A DNA stretch of 44,466 nt from positions 1 to 44,466 of the forward strand of contig NZ_JAINWI010000025.1 of NCBI RefSeq assembly GCF_021021435.1, written 5' to 3'. Source of the stretch: Seohaeicola saemankumensis (GTDB lineage: Bacteria > Pseudomonadota > Alphaproteobacteria > Rhodobacterales > Rhodobacteraceae). The notes below the pieces were generated by a model. The model worked only from the letters and a program-made list of their open reading frames with translations. It made no database searches and was not told the origin of the DNA. Position 1 is the stretch's first letter. Every line of letters starts with the position of its first letter. Shown in pieces: positions 72-40,161 of the stretch. Made by a program: the position numbers and the translations under genes.

Positions 72-317
72 TCAGGCCAACCGTGCAGCAAGATAGGCGG
101 CGGCCTTGCGCGGCGTCGCGAGTTCGCCGTAGTCCGCCTCGGGAATGTCCGTTCCCAGCCGCTTGTGCAGCGCCGCCACAAGCGCGACGATATCCATTGA
201 ATCGAGGTCGAGGTCGTCCTGAAGGTGATCGTCGGCACCGACTGTTCCGGCCTCGAGGTCGGGGGCGATACGGATGAGTTCCTCGATGAACAGGCTCTGA
301 AGCTCGTTGGGGATCAT
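72..317 (-). CDS. acyl carrier protein
   Basis: An 81-residue protein of normal acyl carrier protein length. The phosphopantetheine attachment site is visible as DLDSMD, with Ser40 as the expected modified residue, and acidic residues surround it as usual. It would carry an acyl group as a thioester in the cytoplasm. Its start codon overlaps the stop of the upstream ligase gene by 4 bases (ATGA), so the two are translationally coupled. This suggests that the ligase loads this carrier, as DltA loads DltC, although the ligase resembles CoA-dependent enzymes. No fatty acid synthesis gene is adjacent, so a dedicated role is more likely than housekeeping AcpP. The family call is firm; the partner and acyl group are inferred. 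Confidence 0.9.
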
Positions 318-2077
318 GGTGTGGCGCTCCGTGCCGGGGTATCCTCGGTCTCGAGGGTGGAGGTGTCGCCCTCCGGCAGCCCCAGTTCGCGAGCTTTCAG
401 AAGCCGGCGCATAATCTTGCCCGAACGCGTCTTTGGCAGGCTAGCGATGAAGGCGATTTCGCGCGGGGCAACCGCAGGACCCAGCCGCTTCCGCGCCAGA
501 CCGCGGATTTCCCGTTCCAGTTCCTGGCTTGGAGTGTATCCTGGGTTCAGTGCAACATAGGCACGCACTATCTCGCCCGCGGTCTCGTCCGGCAGGCCAA
601 TGGCTGCAGCCTCCGCCACTGCCGGGTGCTCGATCAGCGCGTTTTCCACCTCGAACGGACCGATGAGGTGACCCGCCGACTTGATGAGGTCGTCGGCCCG
701 GCCGACGAACCAGAAGTAGCCGTCGGCGTCGCGCGTCACGAGATCGCCCGACAGATACCATCCATCCTCGAACGCCTTCCTGTAGCGTGCTTCCTCGCCC
801 AGGTAGCCGCGCATCATCGAGGGCCAGCCGGCACGCAGCGCGAGTTCTCCGGTCTGGCCCGGGCCGCACTCGCGCAGGCTGCCGTCGGCATCGCGGGCAA
901 GCACGCCCGCCTCGACCCCTGGCATGGCGCGGCCCATGGCGCCCGGCCGGATATCCATTGCTGCGGTGTTTGCGATCATGATTGCACCGGTTTCGGTCTG
1001 CCACCATGTGTCGTGGAACGGCATGCCGAAGACCTTCTGGCCCCAGAGCACGCCCTCGGGGTTCAACGGCTCGCCCACGCTGGCCATGTGCCGCAGCCTC
1101 GGATAGCTTCGCCCCTCGACCGCCTCGGGCCCTGCGCGCATCAGCCTGCGGATCGCTGTGGGCGCAGTGTACCAAACCTCGACCGACTCGTCAGCGAGGA
1201 TGTCGAGCCAGCGCCCAGTGTCGAACTCGGCCTCGTCCACGATCATCGTCGCGCCATTCACCAGCGGCGAGATCAATCCGTAAGAGGTGCCGGTCACCCA
1301 ACCCGGATCTGCGGTGCACCAGTAGATGATGCCAGGTCCGAGCTCGAGAGCATAGCGTCCGGTGACGGCATGGGCGAGCACGGCCTGATGGACGTGCAGC
1401 ACGCCCTTAGGCCGACCCGTGGTACCAGAGGTGAAATGGATGAGGGCCACGTCGTCTGGCCGTGAGGGTGAGCAACCCTCCATGGGTTCAACCGCAGCCA
1501 TTTCTTCTGACCACGACAGGCAACCATCGGGGGCCTCCCCGTCCAAGACGATCACCGCTTTCAGTGACGCAAGCTCCCCGCGCCAGTCCGCCACCTTGCG
1601 TTGGTAGAGCGCGGCGGTCGTCACAAGCACGTCAGCGGCACCGATCTCCATGCGCATCCGGATTGGTTCCGGGCCGAAGGCAGCAAAAAGGGGCGTGACC
1701 GTGAGCCCCGCCTTCAAAGCGCCAAGCGCGGCAACGTAGAGTTCCGGCACCCGCCCGGCGAGCAAGAAGAGGTGCGCACCCGGCTGCAAGCCGTGGTGGT
1801 GCAGGAGGCCCGCGAAGCGCGCCGTCTCCTGCGCTAAGTCGCCGTAGGTTAGGTCACGCCGGGCGCCGTCGCGTCCGAGCCATCGGATAGCAACGCGGTC
1901 GCGCGCAGCGCCCTGCGCGTGCCGGTCTACCGCCTCGTGCGCGATGTTGAGCCCGCCTTCGGACAGCCCGTCGAGCGCGGTGGCGGCCGCATCCCATGTG
2001 AACGCTGCACGGTCGGCCTCGGAAAGCTGCGCGGCCCGCCTGTTTGCCTCGGACTTGCGTATCAACTCATGCTGCAT
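314..2077 (-). CDS. acetyl-CoA synthetase-like AMP-forming acyl ligase
   Basis: A 587-residue ANL-superfamily ligase. The ATP-binding loop is [11 protein letters not shown] near residue 213, the DTWWQTETG motif is typical of acetyl-CoA synthetases, and the C-terminal [11 protein letters not shown] segment carries the conserved adenylation lysine near residue 554. It should activate a short carboxylic acid to an acyl adenylate and pass it to CoA or, given the overlapping carrier gene, to the acyl carrier protein. It is shorter than housekeeping Acs of about 650 residues. I chose the ATG at 2077 because GGAGGT lies 3 bases upstream; a longer form from 2125 is possible but has no comparable site. 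It is divergent from the E1 alpha gene across about 220 bases. The substrate is not determined by what I can see. Confidence 0.88.
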
Positions 2078-2300
2078 GGCACCTCCATATCGCCCAATGA
2101 TGAACCGTTCGCGGGAAGTGGTCATTGACGGCAGACAACGAACTTTGCGTCTCGGTCAGGCACGGACCGCCGCTCACGCCGCGGGATTGCGCGCCGTCAA
2201 TGCAGCGATGTGATTCTCGGCGCAGTTTGCTGAAGTGGACGGGCATGGACAGCTCGTTCAAGGACCGCGTGGCACGCCGCGCGACATTGGGAGGAGACAC

Positions 2301-3512
2301 ATGGCACGCGATACAACCCATCCGCCGCAGCAGACAGAGGATCGTCCGGCCTCCACCTCGCGTCGCGGCTTTCTACAACTCGCAGCCGCGACCGGCGCGG
2401 CGATCTCGGTTGGCCGGAGCGCCAAGGCACTGACCGACCTACCCTATCCGGCGGGCGACCTGACCGACGAGAAACTAGTGGACATGTATAGGACGATTCT
2501 GCGCATCCGCTGGCACGAGCGGACCCAAGCCGACGAAATGCTCAGCAATCCAGATTATCGGGGTTACAACCATTTCTATGCTGGTCAAGAGGCCGTGGCG
2601 ACAGGCGTCTGCGCCAACCTACGCAACTCCGGCCCGCGCAACCAACTCGATCTTGTCTATTCCTCGCATCGCCCCTCGGGTCACGCGATCGCCAAGGGCG
2701 TGGATATTCCGAAAATGGTGGCCGAGATGGACTTTCGCGCAACCGGCATGAATGGCGGGTACGGGGCGGAGATGCACATCGCTGATCCCGACGTGGGATT
2801 TGCCGGTGCCGATGGCATGATCGGCCCCGCGCCAGTGATCGCCAGCGGATCGGCCTTCGCCTTCCGCGCACGCGGCTCGGATCAGGTCGCGGTGGTCTTC
2901 GCCGGTGACGGGAACTACGCGGCGCCGCATTTCCACTCCACGCTCAACAACGCGAAGATCCTCGACCTGCCGCTGATCTACGTGTGCGAGAACAACCTCT
3001 ATCACCAGTACGCGCATTATTCGCTATCCTGTCCGCATGAGGACATCGCGACGGCCGCTGCGGCTTACGGCATCCCGGCGGTGACGGTCGACGGGCAGAA
3101 CGTGGTCGAGGTCTACAACGTGGCCAAAGAGGCGGTGGACCGGGCTCGCGCTGGCGGGGGGCCGACCTTCATCGAGGCCAAAACCTACCGCTACTACAAC
3201 CACTGGGGCGCCCCCGGCGCCACAGCGGGCGAACTCGGCGCCTTCGGCTACGACCCGCTCGCCATCACCCACTTCCGCCCCGAGAAGGAGGTTCGCGCGT
3301 GGATGCAACGCGATCCCGTTGACATCGCGCGGCGGATCCTCGTGGAGTGGGGCATCGTGGATGCCGCCCGCGCGGCCGAGATCGAGGAAGAGGTCAAGGC
3401 CGAGATCGCCGCCGCTTTCGAATGGGGCCTTTCGCAGCCCTTCTGCACACCCGAGGACGGCCTTAAGCACGTTTTCGCCGAGGGCACTGTGCCTGCACGT
3501 CAGTTCGGCTGA
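2301..3512 (+). CDS. thiamine-dependent 2-oxoacid dehydrogenase E1 alpha with Tat signal
   Basis: A 403-residue E1 alpha homologue. The thiamine diphosphate motif runs from GDG at residues 202-204 to NN at 231-232, and the KGVD and GAEMHI segments match the pyruvate/branched-chain/acetoin dehydrogenase alpha family. The N-terminus is unusual: STSRRGFLQ at residues 18-26 is a twin-arginine motif, followed by an Ala-rich hydrophobic stretch and an AKA cleavage site near residue 43, so export of the folded protein is predicted. In the C-terminal loop, family members usually have RGHSxxD; here there is YYNHWGAPGA. The start at 2301 is supported by GGGAGGA 5-10 bases upstream; an earlier ATG at 2235 lacks this. 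E1 beta follows after 30 bases. No E2 or E3 is nearby. The substrate is unknown. Confidence 0.88.
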   Translation: MARDTTHPPQQTEDRPASTSRRGFLQLAAATGAAISVGRSAKALTDLPYPAGDLTDEKLVDMYRTILRIRWHERTQADEMLSNPDYRGYNHFYAGQEAVATGVCANLRNSGPRNQLDLVYSSHRPSGHAIAKGVDIPKMVAEMDFRATGMNGGYGAEMHIADPDVGFAGADGMIGPAPVIASGSAFAFRARGSDQVAVVFAGDGNYAAPHFHSTLNNAKILDLPLIYVCENNLYHQYAHYSLSCPHEDIATAAAAYGIPAVTVDGQNVVEVYNVAKEAVDRARAGGGPTFIEAKTYRYYNHWGAPGATAGELGAFGYDPLAITHFRPEKEVRAWMQRDPVDIARRILVEWGIVDAARAAEIEEEVKAEIAAAFEWGLSQPFCTPEDGLKHVFAEGTVPARQFG

Positions 3513-3542
3513 CGCACGGCGCACAATCGAGAGGATAAGACA

Positions 3543-4511
3543 ATGGCAATCAAGAGTTGGATGTATTCGGTGCTGGAAGCTGTCCAGCACGAGATGCGCG
3601 AGGACCCTGCGATGACCTGGATCTTCGAGTTGACTCCGCCGGTGGCCTCCAACCCTGGCAAGCCGGTGATCAACCTGGAGACCGAATTCGGTCGCAAACG
3701 TGTGGTCAATACCGGGATCGACGAGAGCTGGATGGCCTCGGCGGTGATCGGTGCCGGCCTCGCGGGTTCGAAATCGGCGACCTACATCCCTTATCAGGGC
3801 GCCTGCATGCCCTTCCAGGTGATCCAGAACGTCGCCGGCAAGCTGCGCCACAAGACAGGCGGGCGTGCCGCAGTGCCCGTGGTCTGGATCATCGAGATGA
3901 CGGGCCAGACCCCCGGCTTCGGCGGGCAGCATTCCTGCTACGAGGAGGACAGCTACTACATGCATATCCCCGGTGTGCGGACCGTGGTGCCCTCCACGCC
4001 CTACGACGCCAAGGGGATGATGCATGCCGCGCTCCGCTCGCCCGACCCAGTGGTCTATCTCTACCCCGCCGGTCTGCGGACACTGACCGAGGAGGTGCCG
4101 GACGAGGCCTACGAGGTCCCGCTCGACAAGGCCGCGGTTCGGATGGAAGGCAGCGACCTGACGATCGTGAGTTCGGGCGCGGGCATGCCCGGCGTGCTCG
4201 AGGCAGCCGAGAGGCTCACCGGCGAGGGCGCGAGCGTCGAGGTCATCGACCTGCGCGCGCTGAACCAGATGGATACCGAGACCATCGTGAACTCGGTGGC
4301 CAAGACGAAGCGCCTGCTGACTGTTGACCAGTCGTACTACACGCTCTGTCCCGGTGCGGAGGTCATCGCCCGGGCGGTGGAAAACGTCGACGGCGTGCGG
4401 GTCAAACGTGTTGCCTTCCCCGATGCGCCGCCGCCGGCCTCTCCGGAGATGTTCCTGTGGATGCGGCCGGGTCCAGACAACATCGTGGAGGCGGCCCGTG
4501 CGCTCCTCTGA
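3543..4511 (+). CDS. thiamine-dependent 2-oxoacid dehydrogenase E1 beta
   Basis: A 322-residue transketolase-like E1 beta, of usual family length. The conserved Glu that activates thiamine diphosphate is present as Glu61 in NTGIDE (family DTPIxE), and the GGQHS and PSTPYDAKG segments are recognisable. It would form the alpha2beta2 heterotetramer with the gene upstream and decarboxylate a 2-oxoacid. It has no signal peptide of its own, so if the alpha subunit is exported by Tat, beta would have to ride along as a folded partner. This is inferred, not shown. An AG-rich site (GAGAGGATAAG) precedes the ATG. The zinc finger gene begins inside its last codons. Confidence 0.9.
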   Translation: MAIKSWMYSVLEAVQHEMREDPAMTWIFELTPPVASNPGKPVINLETEFGRKRVVNTGIDESWMASAVIGAGLAGSKSATYIPYQGACMPFQVIQNVAGKLRHKTGGRAAVPVVWIIEMTGQTPGFGGQHSCYEEDSYYMHIPGVRTVVPSTPYDAKGMMHAALRSPDPVVYLYPAGLRTLTEEVPDEAYEVPLDKAAVRMEGSDLTIVSSGAGMPGVLEAAERLTGEGASVEVIDLRALNQMDTETIVNSVAKTKRLLTVDQSYYTLCPGAEVIARAVENVDGVRVKRVAFPDAPPPASPEMFLWMRPGPDNIVEAARALL

Positions 4512-4800
4512 GCCGCTGGTGCAGGACTCCGCGCCGACCATCGCCTGCTCCTCCTGCGGCATGGCTGGGCTGACCGAGAGGCGGGTCCAGCTTGCCCTCT
4601 GGCAGGAGGAGCGCCTCGTCGTCGTGGAGGATGTCCCCGCGCTCGTTTGCCGCGGCTGTGGCGAGCGCTTCTACGACGACGAAACGACGATGCGCCTCGA
4701 CATGCTGCGCGGCACGGGCTTTCCTCCCGGCGAGGCGGGACAAGAGATGACGGTGGCCGTGTATCGCCTTCCCGGTCAGAAGGTATCGCGCCGTGGCTGA
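4498..4800 (+). CDS. YgiT-type zinc finger protein
   Basis: A small protein of about 100 residues with two CxxC pairs, CSSC near the N-terminus and CRGC about 35 residues later, arranged as in the N-terminal zinc ribbon of MqsA/YgiT. There is no clear helix-turn-helix antitoxin domain behind it and no MqsR-like toxin gene beside it. I chose GTG 4498, which overlaps the E1 beta stop by 14 bases; the next in-frame GTG at 4519 is also possible, but an ATG at 4561 would lose the first CxxC. The 3' end overlaps the next gene by 8 bases. The tight overlaps place it firmly in the operon. Its role, whether regulator, metal handling or assembly factor, cannot be read from the sequence. Confidence 0.75.
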   Translation: MRSSEPLVQDSAPTIACSSCGMAGLTERRVQLALWQEERLVVVEDVPALVCRGCGERFYDDETTMRLDMLRGTGFPPGEAGQEMTVAVYRLPGQKVSRRG

Positions 4801-5335
4801 ACTTCGCGGAATCGCTCTCGTCGTCCTGCTGGCAGGCGCGGCAGTGGCCCAGCATGACGCATTCGACTTCATGCCGCCAGGCGGGCGGGACATCCTTGGA
4901 ACGCTTGCCGCCGGCGACGCCGGGACCCTCGCCGAGGCCGCCGCCCGCGCCGGCGATCGCGCCGGGTGGGCGGATTGGGTCAGAACCAAGGCGCCGGACA
5001 TGGATGAAAAGGCGGTGGAGACCTTCGCGGCCTACGCCGCGCTGAACCTACCGGTGGCAAACGATGTCTTGACACAGTTTGCGGAGGACCGCGACCTCTT
5101 GCTTCTGCCGCCGGACGGAAAACAGCTAGCGATACAGCAATGTCAGTTCTGCCATTCGATGTTTTCTGGCTACCTGATGCACGACCGCGACGAGGCAGGT
5201 TGGCGGAGTACCTTCAAGGCGCCCTTCCACCTTGAGATCCCGATGACCGAGACCGAACGTGACACGTTTTCCGCGTACTCGGCCATCAACATGCCGATGA
5301 GAATGCTGGACGTGCCGCCGGAACTGCGGTTCTGA
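4793..5335 (+). CDS. exported c-type cytochrome-like protein (first copy)
   Basis: A 180-residue protein with an N-terminal hydrophobic signal peptide ending near VAQ. One covalent heme site, CQFCH, lies at residues 117-121. The part before it (AVETFAAYAALNLP) and the part after it (RDTFSAYSAINMP) resemble each other, so the protein looks like an internal duplication with heme kept only in the second half. Possible distal ligands after the heme site are Met residues and the His of APFHLEI, which is shared with the next gene. It should act in the periplasm, probably carrying electrons. The start is GTG 4793, overlapping the zinc finger gene. I do not recognise a named family. Confidence 0.75.
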   Translation: MAELRGIALVVLLAGAAVAQHDAFDFMPPGGRDILGTLAAGDAGTLAEAAARAGDRAGWADWVRTKAPDMDEKAVETFAAYAALNLPVANDVLTQFAEDRDLLLLPPDGKQLAIQQCQFCHSMFSGYLMHDRDEAGWRSTFKAPFHLEIPMTETERDTFSAYSAINMPMRMLDVPPELRF

Positions 5336-5355
5336 GCGACGCAGGGAGAGACGCA

Positions 5356-5880
5356 ATGAGAACACCTTTAATCGCCGTCACCGCTGTCGCCCTAGCCGGG
5401 CTGGCTGTCGCGCAGGAGGATGACGTCTTCGCCTTCATTCCTGATGGCGGGCGCACGATCCTTGAGCGGCTCCATCATCAGGGAATTCCCGGGGAACTGG
5501 CCGCAGCCATGGCGTCGCAGCAAGCTACGGTCGAGGAATGGAAGGCACAGTTGTCCGGGGCTGGCCTAGACCAATGGGATGCGGCAACGCTGGCCGAGTA
5601 TCTGGAGGCCTACGCGCCCCTCGATCCGGGAGGTGATTTGCCCCAGGACGGTCGCGACCTCGCCCTCGCGAATTGCCAGTTCTGCCATATCATAACGGTC
5701 ACCGTGACGCAGGACCGGACGCGTGAGGCGTGGCTCGGGACACTGAATTCGCCAAGCCATGTCGAGATAGACCTGGACCAGACAGAGCGAGAGTTGCTGG
5801 CGGACTACCTGGTTCTTAACGCTGGCATCCCTATCGACCAGATTCCACCGGAACTGCGCGCCGGGGGCGCCTCCTACTAA
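5356..5880 (+). CDS. exported c-type cytochrome-like protein (second copy)
   Basis: A 174-residue paralogue of the preceding gene. It has a signal peptide ending near VAQ, the same N-terminal pattern FxFIPDGGRTIL, and one CQFCH heme site at residues 107-111. No Met occurs after the heme site, so the usual Met axial ligand is absent; the His in SPSHVEI aligns with the His of APFHLEI in the first copy and is the best distal ligand candidate. GGGAGA lies 5 bases before the ATG. Two monoheme proteins directly behind an exported E1 suggest they accept its electrons, which is an inference. Confidence 0.75.
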   Translation: MRTPLIAVTAVALAGLAVAQEDDVFAFIPDGGRTILERLHHQGIPGELAAAMASQQATVEEWKAQLSGAGLDQWDAATLAEYLEAYAPLDPGGDLPQDGRDLALANCQFCHIITVTVTQDRTREAWLGTLNSPSHVEIDLDQTERELLADYLVLNAGIPIDQIPPELRAGGASY

Positions 5881-5894
5881 GCCGGGGTCGCCCC

Positions 5895-7325
5895 ATGCTC
5901 TTCAACTCTCTCGACTACCTGCTCTTCCTACCGGCTGTGGCGATTTTGTTCCACGTCGTTCCGCAGCGCTCGCGCCTGCCAGTAATGCTGACCGCGAGCC
6001 TCATGTTCTACGCCTCCTACGGACTGGGCCACCTCGTCGGCCTCGGCGCCGTAGCGGTGATCGCGCTCGCCGCGGGGCGTTTCCTGTTGCGCCCGGAGGC
6101 GGCATTCCACCACGCGGCTTTCTGGGGTGGAACGACAGCCATCCTCGGGCTGATGTACGTCCTGAAGTACCACGATCCGATCGCCGCTGTCTTCCCGCTG
6201 GTCCCTGTGACAGGCTTCGCCGCGCCAGCGGGCTTCTCCTTCTACGCCTTCACCGCCATCGCGCTGTTGGCCGACCGGTACCGCCAGCCGGTCGAGAGCC
6301 AAGCGAGTCCGGGCGCCGATATGCTCTTTCTAGCCTGGTTCCCCAAGATCCTCGCCGGCCCGATCGAACGGATTCGCCCCTTCAACGCGGAGCTCAAGTC
6401 TACGCCGCGCCTCGATCTGGCACTGCTCGCTTCGGCGGGGCAGCTCATCTTGTGGGGGCTGGTGAAGAAGGTCGTCGTAGCTGACAACCTCGCGCCCTTC
6501 GTCGATCGAACCTACGCCAGCCCCGACTACGCGGTGCCAATGGAGCTGATCCTCGCCACCTATTTCTTTGCCTTCCAGATCTACTGCGACTTCTCGGGCT
6601 ACACCGACATCGCTCGCGGCAGTTCGCGGCTCTTTGGGATCGAGCTCAACGAGAATTTCCGCCGCTCCTACTTCGCCACCTCCATCGGTGAGTTCTGGTC
6701 GCGGCGCTGGCACATTTCGCTGTCGGAGTGGTTCCGCGACTTTGTCTACTATCCGGTCGTCCACGAAAGTGATTCGGTGATCAGGATGTATGCCGGCCTG
6801 ATGTTGGTCTTTCTGGTGAGCGGGCTCTGGCATGCGGGCCTCGGCTACGGTTTCGGCTGGGGCTTCATCGTCTGGGGTGCACTCAATGGCCTGTTTCTGT
6901 GGGGCGAGCGCAGCATGCGACCCTTGCGGCGCCGGATCAGCCACCGCTGGAAGGGGACATGGAAGGGCCGGCTCTACGGCCTGCTAGCAGGCCTAGTCGT
7001 CTTTCACCTGATCCTGGTGAGCTGGATCTTCTTCCGCGCGGCGGAGATAGACGCGGCGCTGACCATCCTCGGGCGAATCTGGTCCTTCCTGCCCGCCCTT
7101 CCGTCACTCGTCGGCAGCTATCCGTTCACGGTCGAGCACGGATTTCTTACCGCACTGATCGCCGGTCTGTTCGCGATCGAGACGACGCAGGAGGTGCCGG
7201 GCTTGCGGGGTCGAATCCGTTCCGCACCACGTGCGGTGATATGGGCGGGATGGTATGCGGCGGGTTTCGTGCTGATCTTTCTGGGCAGATGGCAGGGCGA
7301 GGCCTTTGTTTACATGCAGTTCTGA
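5895..7325 (+). CDS. MBOAT family O-acyltransferase (AlgI/DltB-like)
   Basis: A 476-residue polytopic membrane protein with the full MBOAT signature: MLFNSLDYLLFLP at the start, FPKILAGPIERI, FQIYCDFSGYTDIARG, ENFRRSY, EFWSRRWHISLSEWFRD and VSGLWH, whose His is the expected catalytic residue. Such proteins move acyl groups from a cytoplasmic donor to an extracytoplasmic acceptor. The next gene encodes an SGNH-type partner, as in many alginate, peptidoglycan and Dlt O-acylation systems. It begins 14 bases after the cytochrome gene. No polysaccharide genes are nearby, so alginate is not implied. The family is certain and the acceptor is unknown. Confidence 0.92.
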   Translation: MLFNSLDYLLFLPAVAILFHVVPQRSRLPVMLTASLMFYASYGLGHLVGLGAVAVIALAAGRFLLRPEAAFHHAAFWGGTTAILGLMYVLKYHDPIAAVFPLVPVTGFAAPAGFSFYAFTAIALLADRYRQPVESQASPGADMLFLAWFPKILAGPIERIRPFNAELKSTPRLDLALLASAGQLILWGLVKKVVVADNLAPFVDRTYASPDYAVPMELILATYFFAFQIYCDFSGYTDIARGSSRLFGIELNENFRRSYFATSIGEFWSRRWHISLSEWFRDFVYYPVVHESDSVIRMYAGLMLVFLVSGLWHAGLGYGFGWGFIVWGALNGLFLWGERSMRPLRRRISHRWKGTWKGRLYGLLAGLVVFHLILVSWIFFRAAEIDAALTILGRIWSFLPALPSLVGSYPFTVEHGFLTALIAGLFAIETTQEVPGLRGRIRSAPRAVIWAGWYAAGFVLIFLGRWQGEAFVYMQF

Positions 7326-7332
7326 GAGAGCG

Positions 7333-8313
7333 ATGACAGTAGAGACCAAAGCAACAACGGACCGGCCTAGCTGGGGGCGCGCGGCGGCCTTCGTCGGGAT
7401 CTTTTTCCTGCTCTACGTAGTCTGCGCCGTCGTGGCCGAGTTCCGCGTTGGCCGCGGCGCGCAGCAAAGCGCGTTCCAGACGCTGCTTGCGGCGCGCGGC
7501 CAGCAGGTCGACTGGATCGTGCTCGGAGCAAGCCATGCCCTACCGCTTGCCTATGGCGACGTGCCTCAACGGGTCGAGGCGGCCACCGGGGAGACAATGC
7601 TGGTGCTGGCCGAGCTTGGCGCGGGACCGGTCTATGCACGCTTCGTCGCGCAGCAGGCGCTGCAGGACGTGAGGCCGCGGCGGGTGCTTTACGTGCTCGA
7701 CACCTTCGCCTTTCAAGCGCGGGAGTGGAACGCGGGCCGTGTCGAGGACCGCACCCTTCTCCGTACTACGCCGCTTCGTGCGTCTACTGCCGTGCGTATG
7801 GCCGGGATGGTGGTCGAGCAGGGGGTCGATCCCCGCGCGATGGCTGATTACCTCACGGCGTTCTCGAAACTCAATCCGCCCCGGCGCTTCGAGACCGACG
7901 GATGGGAGGGGGCGGCAGCCTTTGACCGCGTCGCGCGCCCTTCGCGCGACGCGGTGGCGAGCCGGATCGACTACCTCTACCCTGAAGGGACGAGGATGCA
8001 GGCGGCCGGCCCCGCCCTTTACGCATTCGAGCGCCTCATCGACGAGATGCAGGAGGCAGACGCCGAGGTCGTTGCCCTGCGCTTACCACTCCCTGAGCAT
8101 TTCCGTACGGCTTTGCCGGACAGCGACGCGCTCTTCGCAGCGCTGGAGGACATCATGACCGCGCGAGGCGTACGCTACCACGACCTGTCGGAGGCACTGA
8201 ACGACCCCACACTCTATTTCGATACCGATCACCTGAACCGGTCAGGGGTTGATGCGCTCTGGCGCGACTACCTAGGCGACATAATTAAAGCCGCCAACCC
8301 CGGTGAGCGCTAA
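7333..8313 (+). CDS. membrane-anchored SGNH/DltD-like protein
   Basis: About 326 residues from ATG 7333, which is preceded by GAGAG and lies 7 bases after the MBOAT stop. One N-terminal membrane segment (AFVGIFFLLYVVCAVVA) is followed by an extracytoplasmic domain. The segment IVLGASHALPL near residue 55 fits the nucleophile Ser block, and DTDHLNRSG near the C-terminus fits the Asp-x-x-His block of SGNH hydrolases such as AlgJ, AlgX and DltD. It probably accepts or transfers the acyl group delivered by the MBOAT protein. Sequence similarity is weak, so the family call rests on these two blocks and the neighbour. It ends the operon; no gene follows for about 700 bases. Confidence 0.65.
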   Translation: MTVETKATTDRPSWGRAAAFVGIFFLLYVVCAVVAEFRVGRGAQQSAFQTLLAARGQQVDWIVLGASHALPLAYGDVPQRVEAATGETMLVLAELGAGPVYARFVAQQALQDVRPRRVLYVLDTFAFQAREWNAGRVEDRTLLRTTPLRASTAVRMAGMVVEQGVDPRAMADYLTAFSKLNPPRRFETDGWEGAAAFDRVARPSRDAVASRIDYLYPEGTRMQAAGPALYAFERLIDEMQEADAEVVALRLPLPEHFRTALPDSDALFAALEDIMTARGVRYHDLSEALNDPTLYFDTDHLNRSGVDALWRDYLGDIIKAANPGER

Positions 8314-9007: not shown

Positions 9008-11731
9008 GTGTCTGACACGCTCAAAAAGGATCACAATGCAGTCTCGAACTGGCACGCTGAATCTGTCACCGCCGCCATGGACGGGCTCGACGTGACCGAG
9101 TACGGGCTAACGGATGTTGAAGCCACAGCACGATTGGTCCGTTTCGGCCGCAATGAACTGCCTGACCAAAAGCGGGCGGGCCCCCTCAGGCGGTTTCTCG
9201 CGCAGTTCAACAATCTGCTGATCTACGTCCTTATCGGCGCTGCCGTGGTTACCGGTGTTTTGGGTTATACCAAGGACACGCTTGTGATCCTCGCGGTCGT
9301 CTTTGTGAATGCTGCCATCGGTTTCGTTCAAGAAGGTCGCGCGGAGTCCGCGATCGCGGCGCTCCATCAAATGCTGGCGCCGATGGCGTCGGTTCTGCGT
9401 GGAGAACGCCGCTGCAGGGTCGATGCCGCCGATCTTGTTCCGGGCGACATCATCCTTATCGAAGCCGGCGACAAGGTCCCGGCGGATGCCCGTCTGATCG
9501 ACGCCGCCGCATTGAAGGTACAGGAAGCGATCCTTTCTGGAGAATCCGTGCCGGTCGACAAGTCGGTTGAACCGGTTGCCCCCGATGCCAACCTCGGCGA
9601 CCGTACGTCGATGATCTACAGCGGGACGTTGGTTGTGTACGGGCAGGGTCGTGCCGTTGTTACCGCGACAGGGGCAGAAGCTGAAATTGGTCGGATCAGT
9701 GGCCTTCTCGCAGGTGTCGAGGAACTGACCACGCCGCTTCTGAAGAAGATGGACGTGTTTGCCCGCTGGATCACGGCACTGATCCTGAGCGCCGCCGCCC
9801 TTTTGCTGGTCTACGGCTTCTTCGTACAGAACCTGCCGTTCGAGGCGCTTTTCATGATCGTCGTCAGCCTGTCAGTGGCCGCGATCCCGGAGGGGCTTCC
9901 GGCCGTCCTGACGATCACGTTGGCAATTGGCGTGCGCAAAATGTCAGCGCGCCATGCGATCGTGCGCCGTTTGCCGGCAATTGAGACCCTAGGGGCGCTG
10001 ACCGTGATCTGCACCGACAAGACCGGCACCCTGACCCGCAACGAGATGATGGTCGCATCGATCTCCGCCAATGGCCGTCGCTTTTCGGTGGAGGGCGAGG
10101 GGTATCGACCGAATGGGCGGATCGTGGCTGAAGATGACGGCGAGACCGGCGAACTCGGGCCGTTGATCGCGACTGCAACGCTTTGCAACGATGCCGCTAT
10201 TGCAGACGGACCGGACGGCGTTCCCACAGCTAGTGGCGATCCGATGGAGGCGGCGCTGCTGGTTCTGGCCGACAAGGCCGGGACACCGCATGACGCATTG
10301 CGGGCGGCGTGGACACGGCAAGCGGTGCTACCGTTCGACGCGGCACATCGCTACATGGCGACGCAGGCGACATTGGACGTAGGTGCGGACGACGCCTCGA
10401 TCCATGTCAAAGGTGCGCCTGAAGCGGTGTTTGACTTATGCGCCCGTCAGGCGGAGAACGGTGGGGAGGCACCGCTCGACAGGGCCTTTTGGGAGGCAGA
10501 GACGGACCGCATTGCCGCACTCGGCCAGCGGGTGATAGCGCTTGCGACCAAACCCGCTCCGAAGACAACGGTGCGTCTGGATCATTCGAACCTCTCAAAG
10601 GGGCTGGTGCTGCTCGGGCTGGTCGGGCTGATCGATCCACCGCGCACCGAGGCCATTGCAGCGGTTGCCGACTGCCAAGGTGCCGGGATTGCCGTCAAGA
10701 TGATCACGGGCGATCATGCTGCGACAGCTGCGGCTATCGCCGCGAAAGTCGGGCTGCCGAACCCCGAGCGTGTTCTCACCGGGCGGGACATTGATGGGTT
10801 CGATGACGCGACGCTGTTGCAGGAGGCGGATAAGACAAATGTCTTCGCGCGGACGACACCGGAACACAAGCTGCGTCTGGTTTCGGCTTTGCAGGCTCGG
10901 GGGCATATCGTTGCGATGACCGGCGATGGGGTCAACGACACCCCCGCACTGAAACGCGCCGACGCCGGGGTGGCGATGGGCATCACCGGGTCTGACGCGG
11001 CCAAGGAGGTGGCTGATCTGATCTTGACAGACGACAATTTCGTTTCGATCGCGGCTGCCGTGCGTGAAGGGCGTACGGCCTACGACAATATCCGCAAGGT
11101 GATCAGCTGGACGCTGCCGACCAACGCCGGCGAGGCCGGCATCATCATCCTCGCATTGGTGTTTGGTTTGGTCATCCCCCTGTCGGCGTTGCAGATTCTC
11201 TGGATCAACCTGATCACCGCCGGCTCGCTCGGCGTGGCCCTCGCGTTCGAACGGTCGGAAGAGGCGATCATGCACCAGCCGCCGCTCCCTGTCGGCGCGC
11301 CGATACTGGATCGCGTTCTGATCTGGCATATCGCCTTGGTTACTATGATCTTCCTCGCGGCAATTTACGGGATTTTCAATTACGCAATGGACCGTGGCTA
11401 CAGCCTCGAACTTGCGCGCACGCTGACCGTGAACATGTTGATCATCCTCGAAATATTCCACCTCTTCTACATTCGAAACATCCACACCACATCACTGACA
11501 TGGGAAGCGATACGCGGAACGCCGGTGGTTTGGGTTTGCATTTTGATAGTCGTCGGCGGCCAGTTGCTGTTCACCTACGCCCCCTTCATGCAGGAAATAT
11601 TCGACACGCGACCGGTCACGCTGGCAGATGGCGCAATACTGATTGGCGTCGGGGCCGCGTTCTTGGCGATCGTAGAGATGGAGAAGCAGTTGCGGCTTCG
11701 GTTGAACGCGTCGACTGTGCGCAGGTCATGA
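9008..11731 (+). CDS. P2-type cation-transporting ATPase
   Basis: A 907-residue P-type ATPase of full family length. It has the actuator motif SGES (usually TGES), the membrane segment IPEGLPA, the phosphorylation site DKTGTLT with Asp337, KGAPE in the nucleotide-binding domain and TGDGVNDTPALK in the hinge. The sixth-helix region reads NLITAGSLGVALAFE, without the Asp of calcium pumps (NLVTDG), so calcium specificity is doubtful; monovalent cations or magnesium are alternatives. The start is GTG 9008, a few bases after AGGA. It stands alone between an IS remnant and a recombinase gene and may be mobile cargo. No regulator or subunit gene is adjacent. Confidence 0.88.
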   Translation: MSDTLKKDHNAVSNWHAESVTAAMDGLDVTEYGLTDVEATARLVRFGRNELPDQKRAGPLRRFLAQFNNLLIYVLIGAAVVTGVLGYTKDTLVILAVVFVNAAIGFVQEGRAESAIAALHQMLAPMASVLRGERRCRVDAADLVPGDIILIEAGDKVPADARLIDAAALKVQEAILSGESVPVDKSVEPVAPDANLGDRTSMIYSGTLVVYGQGRAVVTATGAEAEIGRISGLLAGVEELTTPLLKKMDVFARWITALILSAAALLLVYGFFVQNLPFEALFMIVVSLSVAAIPEGLPAVLTITLAIGVRKMSARHAIVRRLPAIETLGALTVICTDKTGTLTRNEMMVASISANGRRFSVEGEGYRPNGRIVAEDDGETGELGPLIATATLCNDAAIADGPDGVPTASGDPMEAALLVLADKAGTPHDALRAAWTRQAVLPFDAAHRYMATQATLDVGADDASIHVKGAPEAVFDLCARQAENGGEAPLDRAFWEAETDRIAALGQRVIALATKPAPKTTVRLDHSNLSKGLVLLGLVGLIDPPRTEAIAAVADCQGAGIAVKMITGDHAATAAAIAAKVGLPNPERVLTGRDIDGFDDATLLQEADKTNVFARTTPEHKLRLVSALQARGHIVAMTGDGVNDTPALKRADAGVAMGITGSDAAKEVADLILTDDNFVSIAAAVREGRTAYDNIRKVISWTLPTNAGEAGIIILALVFGLVIPLSALQILWINLITAGSLGVALAFERSEEAIMHQPPLPVGAPILDRVLIWHIALVTMIFLAAIYGIFNYAMDRGYSLELARTLTVNMLIILEIFHLFYIRNIHTTSLTWEAIRGTPVVWVCILIVVGGQLLFTYAPFMQEIFDTRPVTLADGAILIGVGAAFLAIVEMEKQLRLRLNASTVRRS

Positions 11732-11783: not shown

Positions 11784-12383
11784 CTGATAGGCCATGCGCG
11801 CGTATCCACAGAGGATCAAACCCCCCTGCCCCAGTTTGAGGCCCTGCAAACTGCGGGCTGCGCCGATATCTTCAGGGAGCATGCCTCGGGCGGCAATCGT
11901 TCGCGGCCGATGCTGGCGCGGGTACTGGAACATATCGGCAAAGGCGACACGCTGGTGGTCGTGCGCATCGACCGTCTGGCGCGGTCGCTGTCGCATCTTC
12001 TCGAGGTGATCGAGATACTGGAAGCTAAGGGTGCGTTCTTCCATTCGATCAAAGATCCTATCGACACCGGATCCCCGCAAGGCAAGTTTACACTACTGCT
12101 TCTGGGCGCTGCGGCCGAGTTTGAGCGCGCCCTGAAAACCGATGTGCGTGACGAGTTCCTGCCCGCAGAGGTGCTGGACCGAACCGGACGCCGCAAAGCA
12201 TACGATCGCCTGCCTTCGATTGTCGCCGCAATTATAGGCGCAGATCCCGGCATCACGCTACAGGCGATTTGTGATCGGCTGGAAGCCATGCGCGAAGGGA
12301 CACCGCGTGGACGCTCCAGTTGGCAGCCTTTCTCCGTGAGGATGATGCTGGAAAGGGCGGAGCGCCCTGGATTGTTGGGGTGA
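11784..12383 (+). CDS. serine resolvase/invertase, start codon missing or non-standard
   Basis: The reading frame contains the N-terminal catalytic pattern LIGHARVSTEDQ with the nucleophile Ser, then HASGGNRSRPMLARVL, GDTLVVVRIDRLARSL and AAEFERAL, which is the order found in Tn3-type resolvases and invertases. About 200 residues are present, a normal length, including a C-terminal helix-turn-helix region. However, no ATG, GTG or TTG lies in frame before the catalytic Ser; only CTG and ATA occur up to the stop at 11745. An ATG at 11779 is two bases out of frame with the expected MLIG start, as if two bases had been inserted. Translation from ATG 11910 would lack the nucleophile. It is either a very recent pseudogene or uses CTG. 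Confidence 0.7.
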   Translation: MIGHARVSTEDQTPLPQFEALQTAGCADIFREHASGGNRSRPMLARVLEHIGKGDTLVVVRIDRLARSLSHLLEVIEILEAKGAFFHSIKDPIDTGSPQGKFTLLLLGAAAEFERALKTDVRDEFLPAEVLDRTGRRKAYDRLPSIVAAIIGADPGITLQAICDRLEAMREGTPRGRSSWQPFSVRMMLERAERPGLLG

Positions 12384-13661: not shown

Positions 13662-14381
13662 TGCCGTGCTGGCTTTTCCCGTTGCGCGCCTGCGCGAGCT
13701 TAAAGAGTTTTCCTTTTCAAGATCAGATTCAGCAGAAATTCCAATTTTCTTTGGTAGTTTTCTAAACCGCCGGACATCTCCCGATGCGGCCAGGTTGCAT
13801 GGAATGCATGTCGCAGCGATTGCGCCATCTACAACGGCTGCGGCTCATCTTCCTCCCCTACCCTTCTCGTTGGCGCTTCGCATTCAGCTTGGTCTGGCCT
13901 TGATCGACCGCGCCGCCACCCTTCTGGCTGCGTCAAATTCCCAAGCGTTGGCAACGAAACTGCCGAAGCCTTCGGCTCAATCTCCAGCTTGACCTCCGAT
14001 CTGGAAATCATCATCGAACCCGTCGTAAGGCAGAACAGGAATGCCTGTGGCGGTTCTTTTCACGCTGAGCATCCGCGATCACACCCTTGGCACCAAGCCG
14101 GGCAAGACTGCGAACCCGTGCTGCCTGCCGGTGCAGATGTCATCCCCTGCTGTCAGAAAAAAGCAGCACGAAACATTCTGGCTTGATCGGTTTCGCCCTG
14201 ATCGGCCGACCCGAACTCCAATCTTGAACGCGTTCAAGATTGGAGTTTCCAGAGCCATATATACCCATAATAAGCGCCTGAAACTTATAGGCGCGTGGTA
14301 TCTTTATCTTTTGCTCGGAACCGTGCTACCATAGACATAGAATCGAGTCGAACTCGGACCCACCGAAGTCAGGGCCTACAA
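13662..14381. other. non-coding region before repA
   Basis: About 720 bases between the AAA ATPase gene and repA. Open frames exist on both strands at 13666-13992 (plus) and 13829-14014 (minus), but neither has a ribosome binding site or resembles a family I know. The right part holds the parS-like palindrome and, after it, AT-rich sequence with TATATA (14258-14263) and CATAAT (14266-14271), a likely -10 element for repABC. I cannot pair it with a good -35 element. Confidence 0.55.
14214..14247. repeat. 34-bp perfect palindrome, probable parS/RepB site
   Basis: The left arm AACTCCAATCTTGAACG is followed directly by its exact reverse complement, giving a 34-bp palindrome with no spacer. It lies 134 bases upstream of the repA start. 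RepABC plasmids carry palindromic centromere sites bound by the ParB-like RepB. The core TCTTGAACGCGTTCAAGA recurs almost unchanged inside repB at 16470-16487. The position next to the promoter region suggests that RepB or RepA-RepB binding here also represses the operon. Confidence 0.75.
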
Positions 14382-15737
14382 ATGAGCGGTAGTCTAGAAC
14401 AGTTTTTGACGGATCTGTCACGTGGGCTTGAGCGCACGATGGTGGCTGTGAACAAAGAACTCACCTTGCGTCAGCGCATCAAGCGAGCTTGGTCCATGCG
14501 CCAGTGCGCAAGGTTTCTTAATGTGAGTATTCAGTACCTCACCAAGTTCGCCAATTCGAGTGATGATTTTCCCGCAGGCGAGTATGTTGGAAGAGAGCGC
14601 GTTTTCACTTTGTCCGAATTAATGCACATGCGGGCCCTTCTCGCGGCCTCGGCAAAGCGGCCGTACGACTACCTGGCCTGGCGAAAACCTGACGCGCCTT
14701 TGCCTGTTATCTCGTTTGCAAGCCAGAAAGGCGGGACTGCAAAGAGTCTAAGCGCCGCGCATTTCGCCCAGTATCTCAGCTTGCACTACGGCATGCGTGT
14801 CGGTGTCATGGATGCTGATCCGCAAAGTACTATAACGCTCTACTTCGTCGGTGGAGAGGGCCTTCCCCAAATGCCCGACGAAAACACCGCCTCCATGGTG
14901 GACTTTGCTGGTCTCTTTCAGTCGGACGACGCGCCATACACCGACCATGATGCGCAAAAGCTCGACAGCTTTCTTCTCAAGACCTCCTGGCCAGGCTTGC
15001 GTCTGCTGCCAGCTCACGGCGAAACATCCGAGGGTGAGATCCAGATCGCGCGTCTTGTCCGCGAAGCGCCTGCCGGAAAGAGTTTTTACCGCTATCTACG
15101 CGATTCCATCGACCGCTGGAAGGCAGGCCACCCACCGAAAACGCTACCCAACGAATTGGTAGTCGATGGCAAGGTCGATCAGAAACGGCTCGACACTGCG
15201 CTGACCGAGACCCTAGATGTCATCATCATAGACTATCAACCCGCGCTCACACTATTCCAGTTGAATAACGTGATTGCTTCGACTTCGCTGGTCATACCGC
15301 AAACCATGAAGGGGTTTGACATCGCGACGCTGTCAACCTTTGTCACTGGCCTGCTCGGGATGCTTCAGCACATCCTGGCCCATGAAAGGATCGAGATCGG
15401 AACCGGTGCGAACATGCTGTTGCCAACGATCGTTCAACGGTCCAATGCGCAGGACCTGAACCACATCGGAAACCTTCTGGAACATTGCCCCACAGAGATT
15501 TTGCCGGTGTTTTATCTGCGTTCTGACGCAATCTCGAATGCATCGGACGTTTACCAGTCGGTATACGAATACGAGCCGGACACACCGGGAAAGCGCAAGG
15601 GGATCAACCGGTTTATCACGAATGCCGATGCCGTGAACGACGCCATAGTATCGCGCCTCTGGCCGGGACTCGAACGTGGCTACGCCAATACTTGGATGGA
15701 CGAATTCTATGAAGATGACGGCGAGGGTGAAGCATGA
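14382..15737 (+). CDS. repA: plasmid partitioning protein RepA
   Basis: A 451-residue ParA-type ATPase. An N-terminal DNA-binding region of about 100 residues (RQRIKRAWSMRQCARFLNVS) precedes the deviant Walker A motif KGGTAKS and the GVMDADPQ segment typical of ParA/RepA, followed by VIIIDYQPAL. With RepB it segregates the plasmid and represses the operon. I chose ATG 14382; an upstream start at 14295 would add 29 residues without family character. The stop overlaps the repB start by 4 bases. Length and gene order match repABC plasmids of alphaproteobacteria. Confidence 0.93.
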   Translation: MSGSLEQFLTDLSRGLERTMVAVNKELTLRQRIKRAWSMRQCARFLNVSIQYLTKFANSSDDFPAGEYVGRERVFTLSELMHMRALLAASAKRPYDYLAWRKPDAPLPVISFASQKGGTAKSLSAAHFAQYLSLHYGMRVGVMDADPQSTITLYFVGGEGLPQMPDENTASMVDFAGLFQSDDAPYTDHDAQKLDSFLLKTSWPGLRLLPAHGETSEGEIQIARLVREAPAGKSFYRYLRDSIDRWKAGHPPKTLPNELVVDGKVDQKRLDTALTETLDVIIIDYQPALTLFQLNNVIASTSLVIPQTMKGFDIATLSTFVTGLLGMLQHILAHERIEIGTGANMLLPTIVQRSNAQDLNHIGNLLEHCPTEILPVFYLRSDAISNASDVYQSVYEYEPDTPGKRKGINRFITNADAVNDAIVSRLWPGLERGYANTWMDEFYEDDGEGEA

Positions 15738-16756
15738 AACGCAGTATTCCAAGATCGCTGGTCAGCAAGGCTACCAATCACGATACAAACAAAGAACGTG
15801 CGAGCGGTTCCGAAGGCATACCAGAATCCAGTGATGTTGTTTCAACTCCTTTCAAGGGAGCAGGCAGTGCCTGGAAATCTGGAGCGCTTGCGCAGTCGCA
15901 GGCTGCAGTGGAGCGAAGCAGAGCCGAGCTTTGTTCGGATATCCTCAACGGTCGCCACGAGATAAGCCTGTCGCCAGATCAAATCTCCGATCCGATGGGA
16001 ACTGACCGCCGGCAAGACTGGATGTCTCAGGAAGCCTTCCGGTCTCTGGTAAACAGCATCGCTTCGAACGGGCAGGACACACCCATTCTCGTGTGGCCGG
16101 AGGATCCGGGTTGGCAGCCGGACCCGCTGGACCCGTCGAATATCGCTGGGGTTCCATTCGTAATGCTGACAGGACGCCGCCGACTGGCCGCCGCGTCAGA
16201 ACTCGGTTTACCTCTTCGTGCAATCCTTGCCCCGCCCGACGCGCGAAACGCCGAAAACAGCAAGTTTGAGATGTTGTTTCTACGGTTCCGCGAAAATGAG
16301 GAGCGTGAAAATCTTAGCCCATTTGAGCGATTGGTTTCGATTGGTGAAATGTATGAGACGCTGGCATCTGGCGAAGAGAAACCAACAGCTGTGGCCTTCG
16401 CCAAGAAAATTGGTGTGCACGAGAGCCTCGTCTCGCGAGCGCGGTCCGTTTTCGCTGCGCAGGATCAAATCTTGAACACGTTCAAGAACGTCTACGACAT
16501 GAGCTTTCGCGATTTACAGGGTGCCTTGGCGAGCTTGGAGAGAACGAACAAAACCAAGCCAAAACCAAAGGCAAAGTCACTAAAACTCACCGTGAAGCGC
16601 AAGGTGGGTAACCGGAATCTTTCGGTCACTTCCGTCGATGGAAACTTATCAATCAAGGTTGCGGGAGTACCAATTGACCAAGAGCGTCTCGAAAAGCTTG
16701 GAGACTTAGTCGCAAGCTATTTGAACGTCGCAGACACCGAGAAGGATACCGCCTGA
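15734..16756 (+). CDS. repB: plasmid partitioning protein RepB
   Basis: A 340-residue ParB-like protein. The central part contains the ParB N-terminal nuclease-like region (DTPILVWP, TGRRRLAAASELG) with a version of the ENxxRENLSPFER block (ENEERENLSPFERL), then a helix-turn-helix (AVAFAKKIGVHESLVSRA). It binds palindromic parS sites and works with RepA in partition. Translation is coupled to repA by an ATGA overlap. A near-copy of the upstream palindrome core lies inside the gene at 16470-16487, so the coding sequence may itself hold a binding site. Confidence 0.93.
   Translation: MKRSIPRSLVSKATNHDTNKERASGSEGIPESSDVVSTPFKGAGSAWKSGALAQSQAAVERSRAELCSDILNGRHEISLSPDQISDPMGTDRRQDWMSQEAFRSLVNSIASNGQDTPILVWPEDPGWQPDPLDPSNIAGVPFVMLTGRRRLAAASELGLPLRAILAPPDARNAENSKFEMLFLRFRENEERENLSPFERLVSIGEMYETLASGEEKPTAVAFAKKIGVHESLVSRARSVFAAQDQILNTFKNVYDMSFRDLQGALASLERTNKTKPKPKAKSLKLTVKRKVGNRNLSVTSVDGNLSIKVAGVPIDQERLEKLGDLVASYLNVADTEKDTA
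16470..16487. repeat. second parS-like palindrome inside repB
   Basis: TCTTGAACACGTTCAAGA has 8-base arms that are exact reverse complements around a central AC. It shares all but one base with the core of the 34-bp palindrome at 14214-14247. In an arbitrary coding sequence such a match is unlikely by chance, so it is probably a second RepB target. It encodes the ILNTFKN segment of RepB. Confidence 0.6.
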
Positions 16757-16827
16757 AGACAGCGTCGGAGAAATATCCTGCAGGACGATGAGGCAAGGAG
16801 CAAAAAGGAACGACAAGTGAATTAACG

Positions 16828-16858
16828 GCAAAAGAAAAGCCCCCAAGCGGTGTGGCCT
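16828..16858 (-). terminator. ctRNA terminator
   Basis: Read on the minus strand, GGCCACACCGCTTGGGGGC is followed by TTTTCTTTT. The left and right parts can form six G-C pairs with two bulged A residues and a GCTT loop. The location, between repB and repC on the opposite strand, is where repABC counter-transcribed RNAs end. On the plus strand the same region may block or slow repC transcription. Confidence 0.55.
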
Positions 16859-16882
16859 GAGAGCTGATCTAATGGTTTGGTC
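16830..16882 (-). ncRNA. counter-transcribed RNA controlling repC
   Basis: In repABC replicons a small antisense RNA from the repB-repC gap controls repC expression and incompatibility. Here a minus-strand promoter is visible, a perfect TTGACA (complement of 16912-16917), a 17-base spacer and TATCTT (complement of 16889-16894). Transcription would begin near 16882 and stop at the T-run near 16831, giving about 50 nucleotides, the usual size. The exact ends are estimated from these elements. Confidence 0.7.
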
Positions 16883-16888
16883 GCCTTC

Positions 16889-16917
16889 AAGATAAGTCTC
16901 ACAGGGTTCACTGTCAA
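16889..16917 (-). promoter_or_regulatory. ctRNA promoter
   Basis: The minus strand reads TTGACA, 17 bases, TATCTT. The -35 is a full match to the sigma-70 consensus and the -10 matches 4 of 6. It faces away from repC and towards the ctRNA terminator. Confidence 0.7.
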
Positions 16918-16981
16918 CGACGAACGCTTTCGAGCGAACGGCTTTCTTTTGCCTCCACATAACCGGAGGTGAGAAACAGGC

Positions 16982-20464: not shown

Positions 20465-20495
20465 GTTTTTGTTCCTCCCTTGGTATGTCGAACGC

Positions 20496-23111: not shown

Positions 23112-23177
23112 CCCCCCCTCCCCGAAGCGATGTACCGTTGGCGTCCCAACTCCATAGCTATTGTACACAGAACTCAA

Positions 23178-23197
23178 AACTACACGACCGTGTAGTT
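23178..23197. promoter_or_regulatory. 20-bp dyad between alkS and alkB
   Basis: AACTACACG, two central bases AC, then CGTGTAGTT form a perfect inverted repeat. It lies in the divergent alkS-alkB gap, 126 bases before the alkB start. Many LuxR-type regulators bind 18-20 bp dyads, so this is a plausible AlkS operator for one or both promoters. I did not find a second copy elsewhere in the window. Confidence 0.6.
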
Positions 23198-23255
23198 GTT
23201 GGGTGCCCTAGTTGAGTGGATTTTGCCCTCTAGCGTCAAGCGGCAGGAGGAAGCA

Positions 23256-23297
23256 ATGCAAAGCAATTACGCTTCTGGCCACCGTAAGGCCAAATGA
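23256..23297 (+). CDS. possible 13-residue leader ORF before alkB
   Basis: An ATG at 23256 preceded by a strong AGGAGG opens a 13-codon frame, MQSNYASGHRKAK, that ends 25 bases before the alkB start. Its ribosome binding site is at least as good as that of alkB itself. It may affect alkB translation by coupling or a leader effect, or be incidental. There is no run of repeated codons that would point to classical attenuation. Confidence 0.4.
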   Translation: MQSNYASGHRKAK

Positions 23298-23322
23298 CAG
23301 CCTTTCAGGGAGGAACAGACTG

Positions 23323-24534: not shown

Positions 24535-24708
24535 AGTTCAGGCAAACCGCCCTACACTCAGGAGTTGGCTCGGATTGGGCCAACCCCGACCTGCCAAATG
24601 GCACTTCGCTTTCATTCGAAAGCAAGGCCGCAGGAAGAACCTACGGAAAATAAGAACGGGACGCACATGCTCGCTTGTCAGCAAGCGTGTGAAAGGGAGG
24701 AATGAACA

Positions 24709-26642: not shown

Positions 26643-26673
26643 AAGCCGGCCTGAACCAATAGGGAGAGAAGAA

Positions 26674-40128: not shown

Positions 40129-40161
40129 AGTACGAATTAGAAATTGTTCAGGGAGGATCAA

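Follow-up and report, generated by a model that had tools for sequence, protein, structure and literature searches.

In the 44,466-nucleotide contig NZ_JAINWI010000025.1 of Seohaeicola saemankumensis, a complete contig (G000:C18) hereafter called the window, positions 2301-8313 hold one seven-gene unit encoding E1 alpha and E1 beta subunits of the 2-oxoacid dehydrogenase type, a zinc finger protein, two CxxCH proteins (cyt1 and cyt2), an MBOAT protein and an SGNH protein. We propose that the unit specifies a periplasmic 2-oxoacid dehydrogenase used at low oxygen, in which heme proteins would accept the electrons and an MBOAT-SGNH relay running inwards would replace the E2 component; we give this reading a probability of about 0.37. 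The seven-gene system is apparently undescribed, and its function is predicted from sequence. Each part, the cytochromes perhaps excepted, is from a known superfamily, and to our knowledge no known system joins E1, cytochromes, MBOAT and SGNH. The first 8.3 kb of the window carry a carrier gene and a ligase gene on the minus strand, followed by the seven closely spaced genes on the plus strand (Table 1). Every gene named in a first-pass annotation of this DNA was found to be present; Pfam or NCBIfam models back the ligase, the carrier, E1 alpha, E1 beta, the YgiT-type finger and the MBOAT protein, while cyt1 and cyt2 matched no Pfam family and the SGNH gene gave sub-threshold Pfam matches only.

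The evidence that these genes form a unit comes from their conservation. One scan of a genome collection with E1 alpha alone as the query, a method that reaches close relatives only, returned 54 other loci with 65-92% identity from Rhodobacteraceae, Hyphomicrobiales, other Alphaproteobacteria and Burkholderiales/Betaproteobacteria, both isolates and metagenome-assembled genomes (MAGs). Since several loci share one MAG (L053, L064 and L067 in one, L026 and L028 in another), the 54 loci represent about 51 assemblies. In the MAG MO_188.B57, which holds the two E1 alpha loci L026 and L028, L028 spans the whole unit and L026 stops in E1 beta. By tblastn with the window proteins, all seven genes were found in constant order on one strand in 45 of the 54 loci, and in the other nine the contig stops too early to hold the next missing gene in full. 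The order was present in 45/45 other loci whose contigs reach far enough, with the end genes partial in some of them (L018, L049 and L067), which rules out a chance neighbourhood. The first-pass annotation had placed the E1 pair, the CxxCH proteins and the acyl transfer genes in one system, and the E1 pair, the CxxCH pair and MBOAT/SGNH do occur together wherever the contig permits.

When 394 genomes from the host family were searched with a cyt1 profile, the cytochrome pair was identified in 15 of them (the host genome, L014 and L059, which were already known, and 12 fetched ones), all with matches to all seven genes; a 16th genome (G1381) gave a single weak match to the profile and lacked the unit. 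Eleven of the 12 fetched loci had already been found through E1 alpha, leaving L159 as the sole new locus. The unit is rare: in the cytochrome search, with the query genome always counted, it was found in 3 of 147 relatives, 1 of 398 genomes in the phylum, 1 of 300 in the order to which the Ramlibacter genome belongs and 2 of 385 in the class. Matches to E1 alpha and MBOAT among the PLSDB plasmids were all below 60% identity, so the unit is not in PLSDB at close identity. E1 alpha and E1 beta are its most conserved proteins (median pairwise identity 73% and 79%, against 42-52% for the others). Protein distances of E1 alpha and MBOAT were correlated over 38 copies (r = 0.71, with 0 of 2000 permutations as high), an agreement that fits shared ancestry as well as coupling and does not separate the two. 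Residue counts given below omit truncated, read-through and out-of-length proteins (for example, 42 of 46 SGNH and 46 of 49 MBOAT proteins were kept).

A twin-arginine motif is present in 52/52 intact E1 alpha N-ends, the window counted; the window protein scored 17.7 against TIGR01409 (cut-off 16.7) and below the cut-off of Pfam TAT_signal, and the cleavage site was placed by eye. Pfam domains PF00676, PF02779 and PF02780 were matched above cut-off by the E1 proteins. E1 alpha has 156 invariant residues (51 sequences) and keeps the GDG...ENNxY thiamine diphosphate (ThDP)/metal motif, and E1 beta has 124 (52 sequences), including E61 and H130, which align with the Glu and His of solved E1 enzymes (1um9_B); in E1 enzymes this Glu and His are catalytic and the motif residues serve the ThDP cofactor. 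The best NCBIfam model for E1 alpha, of the pyruvate dehydrogenase (PDH) type, gave 221 bits (cut-off 394). As E1 alpha reaches none of the NCBIfam equivalog cut-offs, it cannot be assigned to any curated equivalog. E1 beta lacks the twin-arginine motif and, judged by eye, any signal peptide; because it has no signal of its own, it would ride out with alpha and so would be located outside the inner membrane, a type of co-export known for PaoABC (PMC4273604). With the E2 of locus L109 as the single query (E 1e-6), no E2 relatives were detected in the flanks fetched for the 54 unit loci, and the three E2 genes of the host genome lie on contigs C3, C6 and C23, each with another E1, and not on the window contig. 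An ordinary PDH paralogue is therefore ruled out, as the fetched flanks showed no E2 and all intact copies keep the Tat motif. We consider it probable that E1 works together with cytochrome c outside the cytoplasm, and we strongly infer that a 2-oxo acid is oxidised with electrons going to cytochrome c; the export of E1 alpha and its partnership with cytochromes, both suggested in the first-pass annotation, are well supported by conservation.

By the criterion of a CxxCH site on an exported protein, cyt1 and cyt2 were classed as putative c-type cytochromes. At the heme site of cyt1 the first Cys is kept in 49/50 sequences and the second Cys, the His and H146 in 50/50; in cyt2 the CQxCH site and H135 are invariant. 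H146 and H135 lie, as placed by eye, at the Met site of class I cytochromes, and an invariant His at this position suggests that both hemes are bis-His. Both proteins have constrained C-terminal ends. That of cyt1 has Pro-x-x-x-Arg in 52/52 sequences, followed by Phe in 50/52, and that of cyt2 reads LRAGGA[ST]Y (LRAGGASY or LRAGGATY) in 50 of the 51 C-ends that are complete; in L048, the lone exception, cyt1 was matched a second time. Outside this tail the median identity of cyt2 is 52%. A sequence so constrained suggests a docking function for the tail, and the invariant Tyr tail of cyt2 may be a docking arm or an acyl carrier in the relay. The predicted model of cyt2 has a predicted local distance difference test score (pLDDT) of 83, with the last residues below 50, and its weak fold matches (E 1.3 and above) include a Rhodobacter sphaeroides diheme cytochrome (the best), cytochrome c6 and others. 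In the YgiT-type zinc finger four Cys are invariant in 53/53 sequences, and its putative role is in assembly or regulation.

The MBOAT protein matched PF03062 with 84.8 bits (cut-off 27) and the DltB structures 8jem/6bug at 4e-23. Its C-terminus carries the acyl-shuttle motif FVYMQF (FXYXXF), in which Y473 and F476 are kept in 46/46 sequences and F471 in 45/46. W312-H313 is likewise invariant (46/46), and H313 is by analogy a candidate catalytic His, the HMMER alignment to DltB being offset around these two residues. In the SGNH protein the Ser is kept in 42/42 sequences and the Asp and His of DxDH in 41/42, with one gap. Its predicted model (pLDDT 91) has a long N-terminal helix, and the top Foldseek matches were DltD structures (6o93 and 3bma; E 9.2e-6) with modest template modelling scores (TM-scores) of 0.40-0.46; hydrolases were also among the fold matches. 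Sequence and predicted model together thus show a Ser and an Asp-x-x-His on an SGNH fold. Passages of PMC12148441 describe MBOAT-SGNH pairs, including PatAB and Dlt, as moving acyl groups outwards; in PatA the Tyr of the shuttle motif acetylates itself, and the acyl group passes to the Ser of the SGNH partner. The kept shuttle motif and SGNH triad match the acyl-Tyr/acyl-Ser mechanism as given there.

The neighbouring ligase and carrier were also characterised. The ligase scored 817.6 bits against NF003313 (acetate--CoA ligase; cut-off 729), and the carrier 13.9 bits against dltC (cut-off 52.35) and 15.3 against NF003464 (cut-off 68). As the ligase fits the acetate--CoA ligase model and the carrier misses the DltC cut-offs, Dlt membership is ruled out. 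The Dlt-like system put forward in the first-pass annotation was thus not borne out, since the ligase and carrier models disagree with it and the shuttle motif lies on the MBOAT protein itself, as in PatA. Ligase relatives with at least 60% identity were found in 7 of the 54 other loci, with four more loci at 24-31%, and carrier relatives also in 7 of 54, five of them forming an adjacent pair with the ligase. Six loci have the adjacent pair near the unit, namely the window, L014, L016, L017, L031 and L045; a ligase of at least 60% identity also occurs in L041, where the contig end cuts it, and in L063, and an unpaired carrier in L036 and L041. Being paired in only 5 of 54 other loci, ligase and carrier are ruled out as core parts, and their inclusion in the core set by the first-pass annotation did not stand: elsewhere an E1 and a lipoyl E2 lie between the two. 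Because the window is the whole contig, the sequence past the carrier gene is cut off.

The carrier family was found in 16 of 147 relatives (E 1e-12), of which only the host genome and G068 have the unit, and 11 of the 14 non-unit carrier loci were fetched. The order ligase, E1, lipoyl E2, carrier was identified in 10/10 complete non-unit loci (L102 and L104-L112), the identity of E2 resting on Pfam matches of the L109 protein; the eleventh locus shows E2 and carrier and is then cut. In 8 of the 10 the E1 is an alpha-beta fusion without a signal peptide by eye, and in L111 and L112 it is apparently two genes. The ligase-carrier pair accompanies two kinds of E1, and in the unit the cytochromes and MBOAT/SGNH stand where E2 would be, as if E2 had been exchanged for them. 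On this, above all, rests our suggestion that the E1 product is handled by the acyl pair, for which we see about even odds. In L109 (9298-10638), a small cytochrome-like gene, just under the Pfam cut-off, and an NnrU gene directly follow the ligase-E1-E2-carrier operon.

We sought the FNR-type box TTGAT-N4-ATCAA in the 300 bases before E1 alpha at 52 loci. With at most one mismatch it was found at 20 loci, as compared with 0.9% in shuffles and 2.4% in random pieces of the same loci, and with at most two mismatches at 35 (8.5% and 10.4%, respectively); 28 of these 35 boxes sit 56-136 bases before the chosen E1 alpha start. Regulators of the Crp or Dnr type may use such boxes as well. The flanks vary between loci while the order of the unit stays constant. 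Twenty-four flank clusters occurred in at least four loci, and 20 were annotated by one member each, clusters 26-29 being left out; they include Crp-type regulators, Usp, Hsp20, S30AE proteins, nitroreductase, ATP synthase parts and a P-type ATPase, and one of the 20 had no Pfam match. In the window a P-type cation ATPase (9008-11731) adjoins the unit, and its blast cluster is represented in six other unit loci. In Dinoroseobacter, according to a passage of PMC5398030, FnrL induces the cbb3 oxidase and Usp genes. The boxes, the flanking genes and this precedent make low-oxygen control likely for many carriers of the unit.

In the mechanism that we infer, E1 alpha and beta would assemble with ThDP in the cytoplasm and be exported jointly through the Tat system, beta as a hitchhiker. 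Periplasmic E1 would decarboxylate a 2-oxo acid, pyruvate or a compound close to it being the likeliest, and the two one-heme cytochromes would accept the two electrons singly for delivery to the cytochrome c pool. From ThDP the acyl group would move to the active-site Ser of SGNH, then to the C-terminal Tyr of MBOAT, and through the membrane to coenzyme A (CoA), or to the carrier where present, so that a known MBOAT-SGNH relay would be run inwards in place of the lipoyl E2. The inward direction is favoured because it gives a role to all parts but the zinc finger and needs neither NAD nor acid uptake. Stated in full, as a transmembrane 2-oxoacid dehydrogenase with exported E1, two c-type hemes as acceptor, SGNH plus MBOAT instead of lipoyl E2 and the acyl group delivered inwards to CoA or carrier, the proposal is tentative, a shade more so than the shorter form given at the outset.

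Several points weigh against this proposal. We know of no precedent for the inward direction of an MBOAT-SGNH pair, the step from a Ser ester to a Tyr ester is expected to be uphill, and the sequence evidence here fixes neither direction nor substrate. The cyt2 model gave no confident PDB match in the fold search (best E 1.3). Most unit loci are without ligase and carrier nearby. In L063 the unit is accompanied, at a distance of 7 kb, by a ligase and, after it, a fused E1 that lacks a signal; both systems can therefore occur together, and the exchange is not a strict one. Common low-oxygen control, rather than common chemistry, could also account for the shared neighbourhood: the ligase-E1-E2-carrier operons have an FNR-type box as well (9/10 at two mismatches or fewer), whereas only 2 of the 6 ligases next to the unit do, and the window's own best box before E1 alpha has three mismatches.

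The rival that survives best, which we still regard as unlikely, is outward acylation, in which MBOAT would take an acyl group from cytosolic acyl-CoA or carrier and SGNH would pass it to an envelope polymer or a small acceptor, E1 and the cytochromes carrying out a linked oxidation of the same compound. This is the direction described for PatAB and Dlt systems in the passages of PMC12148441, the SGNH fold is closest to DltD, and in the six loci with the adjacent pair the acyl group would come from ligase and carrier. However, these two are absent near most loci, E1 and the cytochromes have no clear part in such a scheme, and none of the 20 annotated flank clusters is a polymer synthesis family, though PatAB needs no such neighbour.

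More doubtful is a periplasmic oxidation to free acid and CO2, in which SGNH would hydrolyse the acyl intermediate, the ligase, where present, would re-activate acetate and MBOAT would have a side role. PoxB, which oxidises with quinone, is a parallel; the acetate--CoA ligase type of the ligase and the hydrolases among the SGNH fold matches agree with it, and low-oxygen control would suit a path making no NADH, but a constant MBOAT with a conserved shuttle motif is left unexplained. Improbable, in our view, are two independent low-oxygen functions in one unit, an E1-cytochrome oxidase and an envelope acyltransferase, joined by co-regulation or co-transfer: the flank clusters (Crp-type regulators, Usp, Hsp20, nitroreductase and S30AE proteins among them) and the repABC-type genes on the window contig would fit, yet the order is unbroken in 45/45 complete alpha- and betaproteobacterial loci despite varying flanks. 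Just as improbable is an acyloin, a diketone or another carbonyl as the E1 substrate (acetoin dehydrogenase type), the cytochrome and relay partners being unchanged, which the E1 alpha scores below all equivalog cut-offs would allow, but for which no positive evidence was found.

Compared with known systems, the unit shares the E1 domains, the ThDP motif and the catalytic Glu and His with the alpha2-beta2 E1 of pyruvate and branched-chain 2-oxoacid complexes, and differs by the Tat signal on alpha, the lack of E2 in the fetched flanks, and the cytochromes and acyltransferase pair as constant partners. With PatA-PatB and other MBOAT-SGNH pairs, as far as passages of PMC12148441 describe them, it shares a C-terminal FXYXXF of its own and an SGNH protein with an N-terminal helix, Ser and DxxH; unlike in those pairs, its MBOAT-SGNH is coupled with E1 and the cytochromes wherever the locus is complete. 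Like Dlt, it has a DltB-like MBOAT and a DltD-like SGNH fold, with ligase and carrier nearby in a minority of loci; unlike Dlt, its ligase is of the acetate--CoA type, its carrier scores below the DltC cut-offs, both are optional, the shuttle motif is on MBOAT, and there is no DltX-like gene in the unit. The ligase-E1-E2-carrier operons share the ligase and carrier families and the FNR-type box, and have a signal-less E1 and E2 instead of the exported E1, cytochromes, MBOAT and SGNH.

PoxB, pyruvate:quinone oxidoreductase, is a single-chain, ThDP-dependent flavin adenine dinucleotide (FAD) enzyme on the cytoplasmic side; the unit would likewise oxidise pyruvate without NAD in a ThDP-dependent manner, differing as an exported two-subunit E1 with hemes. 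By the accepted view, PDH chemistry depends on cytoplasmic lipoyl E2 and E3. If true, our proposal would describe a new kind of energy-conserving enzyme, extend MBOAT-SGNH relays beyond envelope polymer modification, and explain 2-oxo acid oxidation without NADH in some low-oxygen Proteobacteria. No description of the seven-gene unit or its setting was found in the open-licence literature, in line with the statement in the first-pass annotation that no described system with this set was known to it.

Table 1. Genes in the first 8.3 kb of the window. Start sites were chosen at 2301 for E1 alpha and at 7333 for SGNH (TTG alternative at 7306).
Feature	Position	Strand	Support and remarks
Acyl/peptidyl carrier protein	72-317	-	PF00550 PP-binding 2.6e-9; optional neighbour, outside core
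Acetate--CoA ligase type AMP-forming ligase	314-2125	-	AMP-binding 1.2e-74; optional neighbour, outside core
E1 alpha, 2-oxoacid dehydrogenase type, Tat signal peptide	2301-3512	+	PF00676 3e-50
E1 beta	3543-4511	+	PF02780 Transketolase_C 4.5e-26
YgiT-type zinc finger, 93 residues, GTG start	4519-4800	+	TIGR03831 1e-10
Putative cytochrome 1 (cyt1), exported, one CxxCH, end PPELRF	4793-5335	+	Conserved heme site; Sec-type N-end by eye
Putative cytochrome 2 (cyt2), exported, one CxxCH	5356-5880	+	Conserved heme site; signal peptide by eye
MBOAT acyltransferase, DltB/PatA-like	5895-7325	+	PF03062 9.2e-24
SGNH acyltransferase-like protein, membrane-anchored, DltD-like fold	7333-8313	+	ATG start; Ser + DxDH; predicted model

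Further along the window, positions 14295-18262 encode a ParA/RepA-like AAA protein, one further open reading frame (ORF) and RepC (PF03428), which form a repABC-type replication unit; because of it, the window contig is probably a piece of a plasmid or chromid carrying the E1 unit. Between the E1 unit and the replication genes lies a Resolvase-type recombinase fragment (11910-12383; PF00239, profile positions 52-128 of 145) in which the start of the domain is missing. The G+C content is about 55% after 14 kb, as compared with 65% in the E1 unit. A set of the alkane degradation type at 19283-30853 comprises a reductase, a LuxR-type regulator, a desaturase-like protein, a double rubredoxin, an aldehyde dehydrogenase, a GMC oxidoreductase, a ligase-like ORF and an OmpW-type protein, and we take it to resemble the Pseudomonas alk genes. 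Finally, a 300-base direct repeat (40250-40549 and 41593-41892, 71% identical) lies inside and just after the ORF at 40144-41400.

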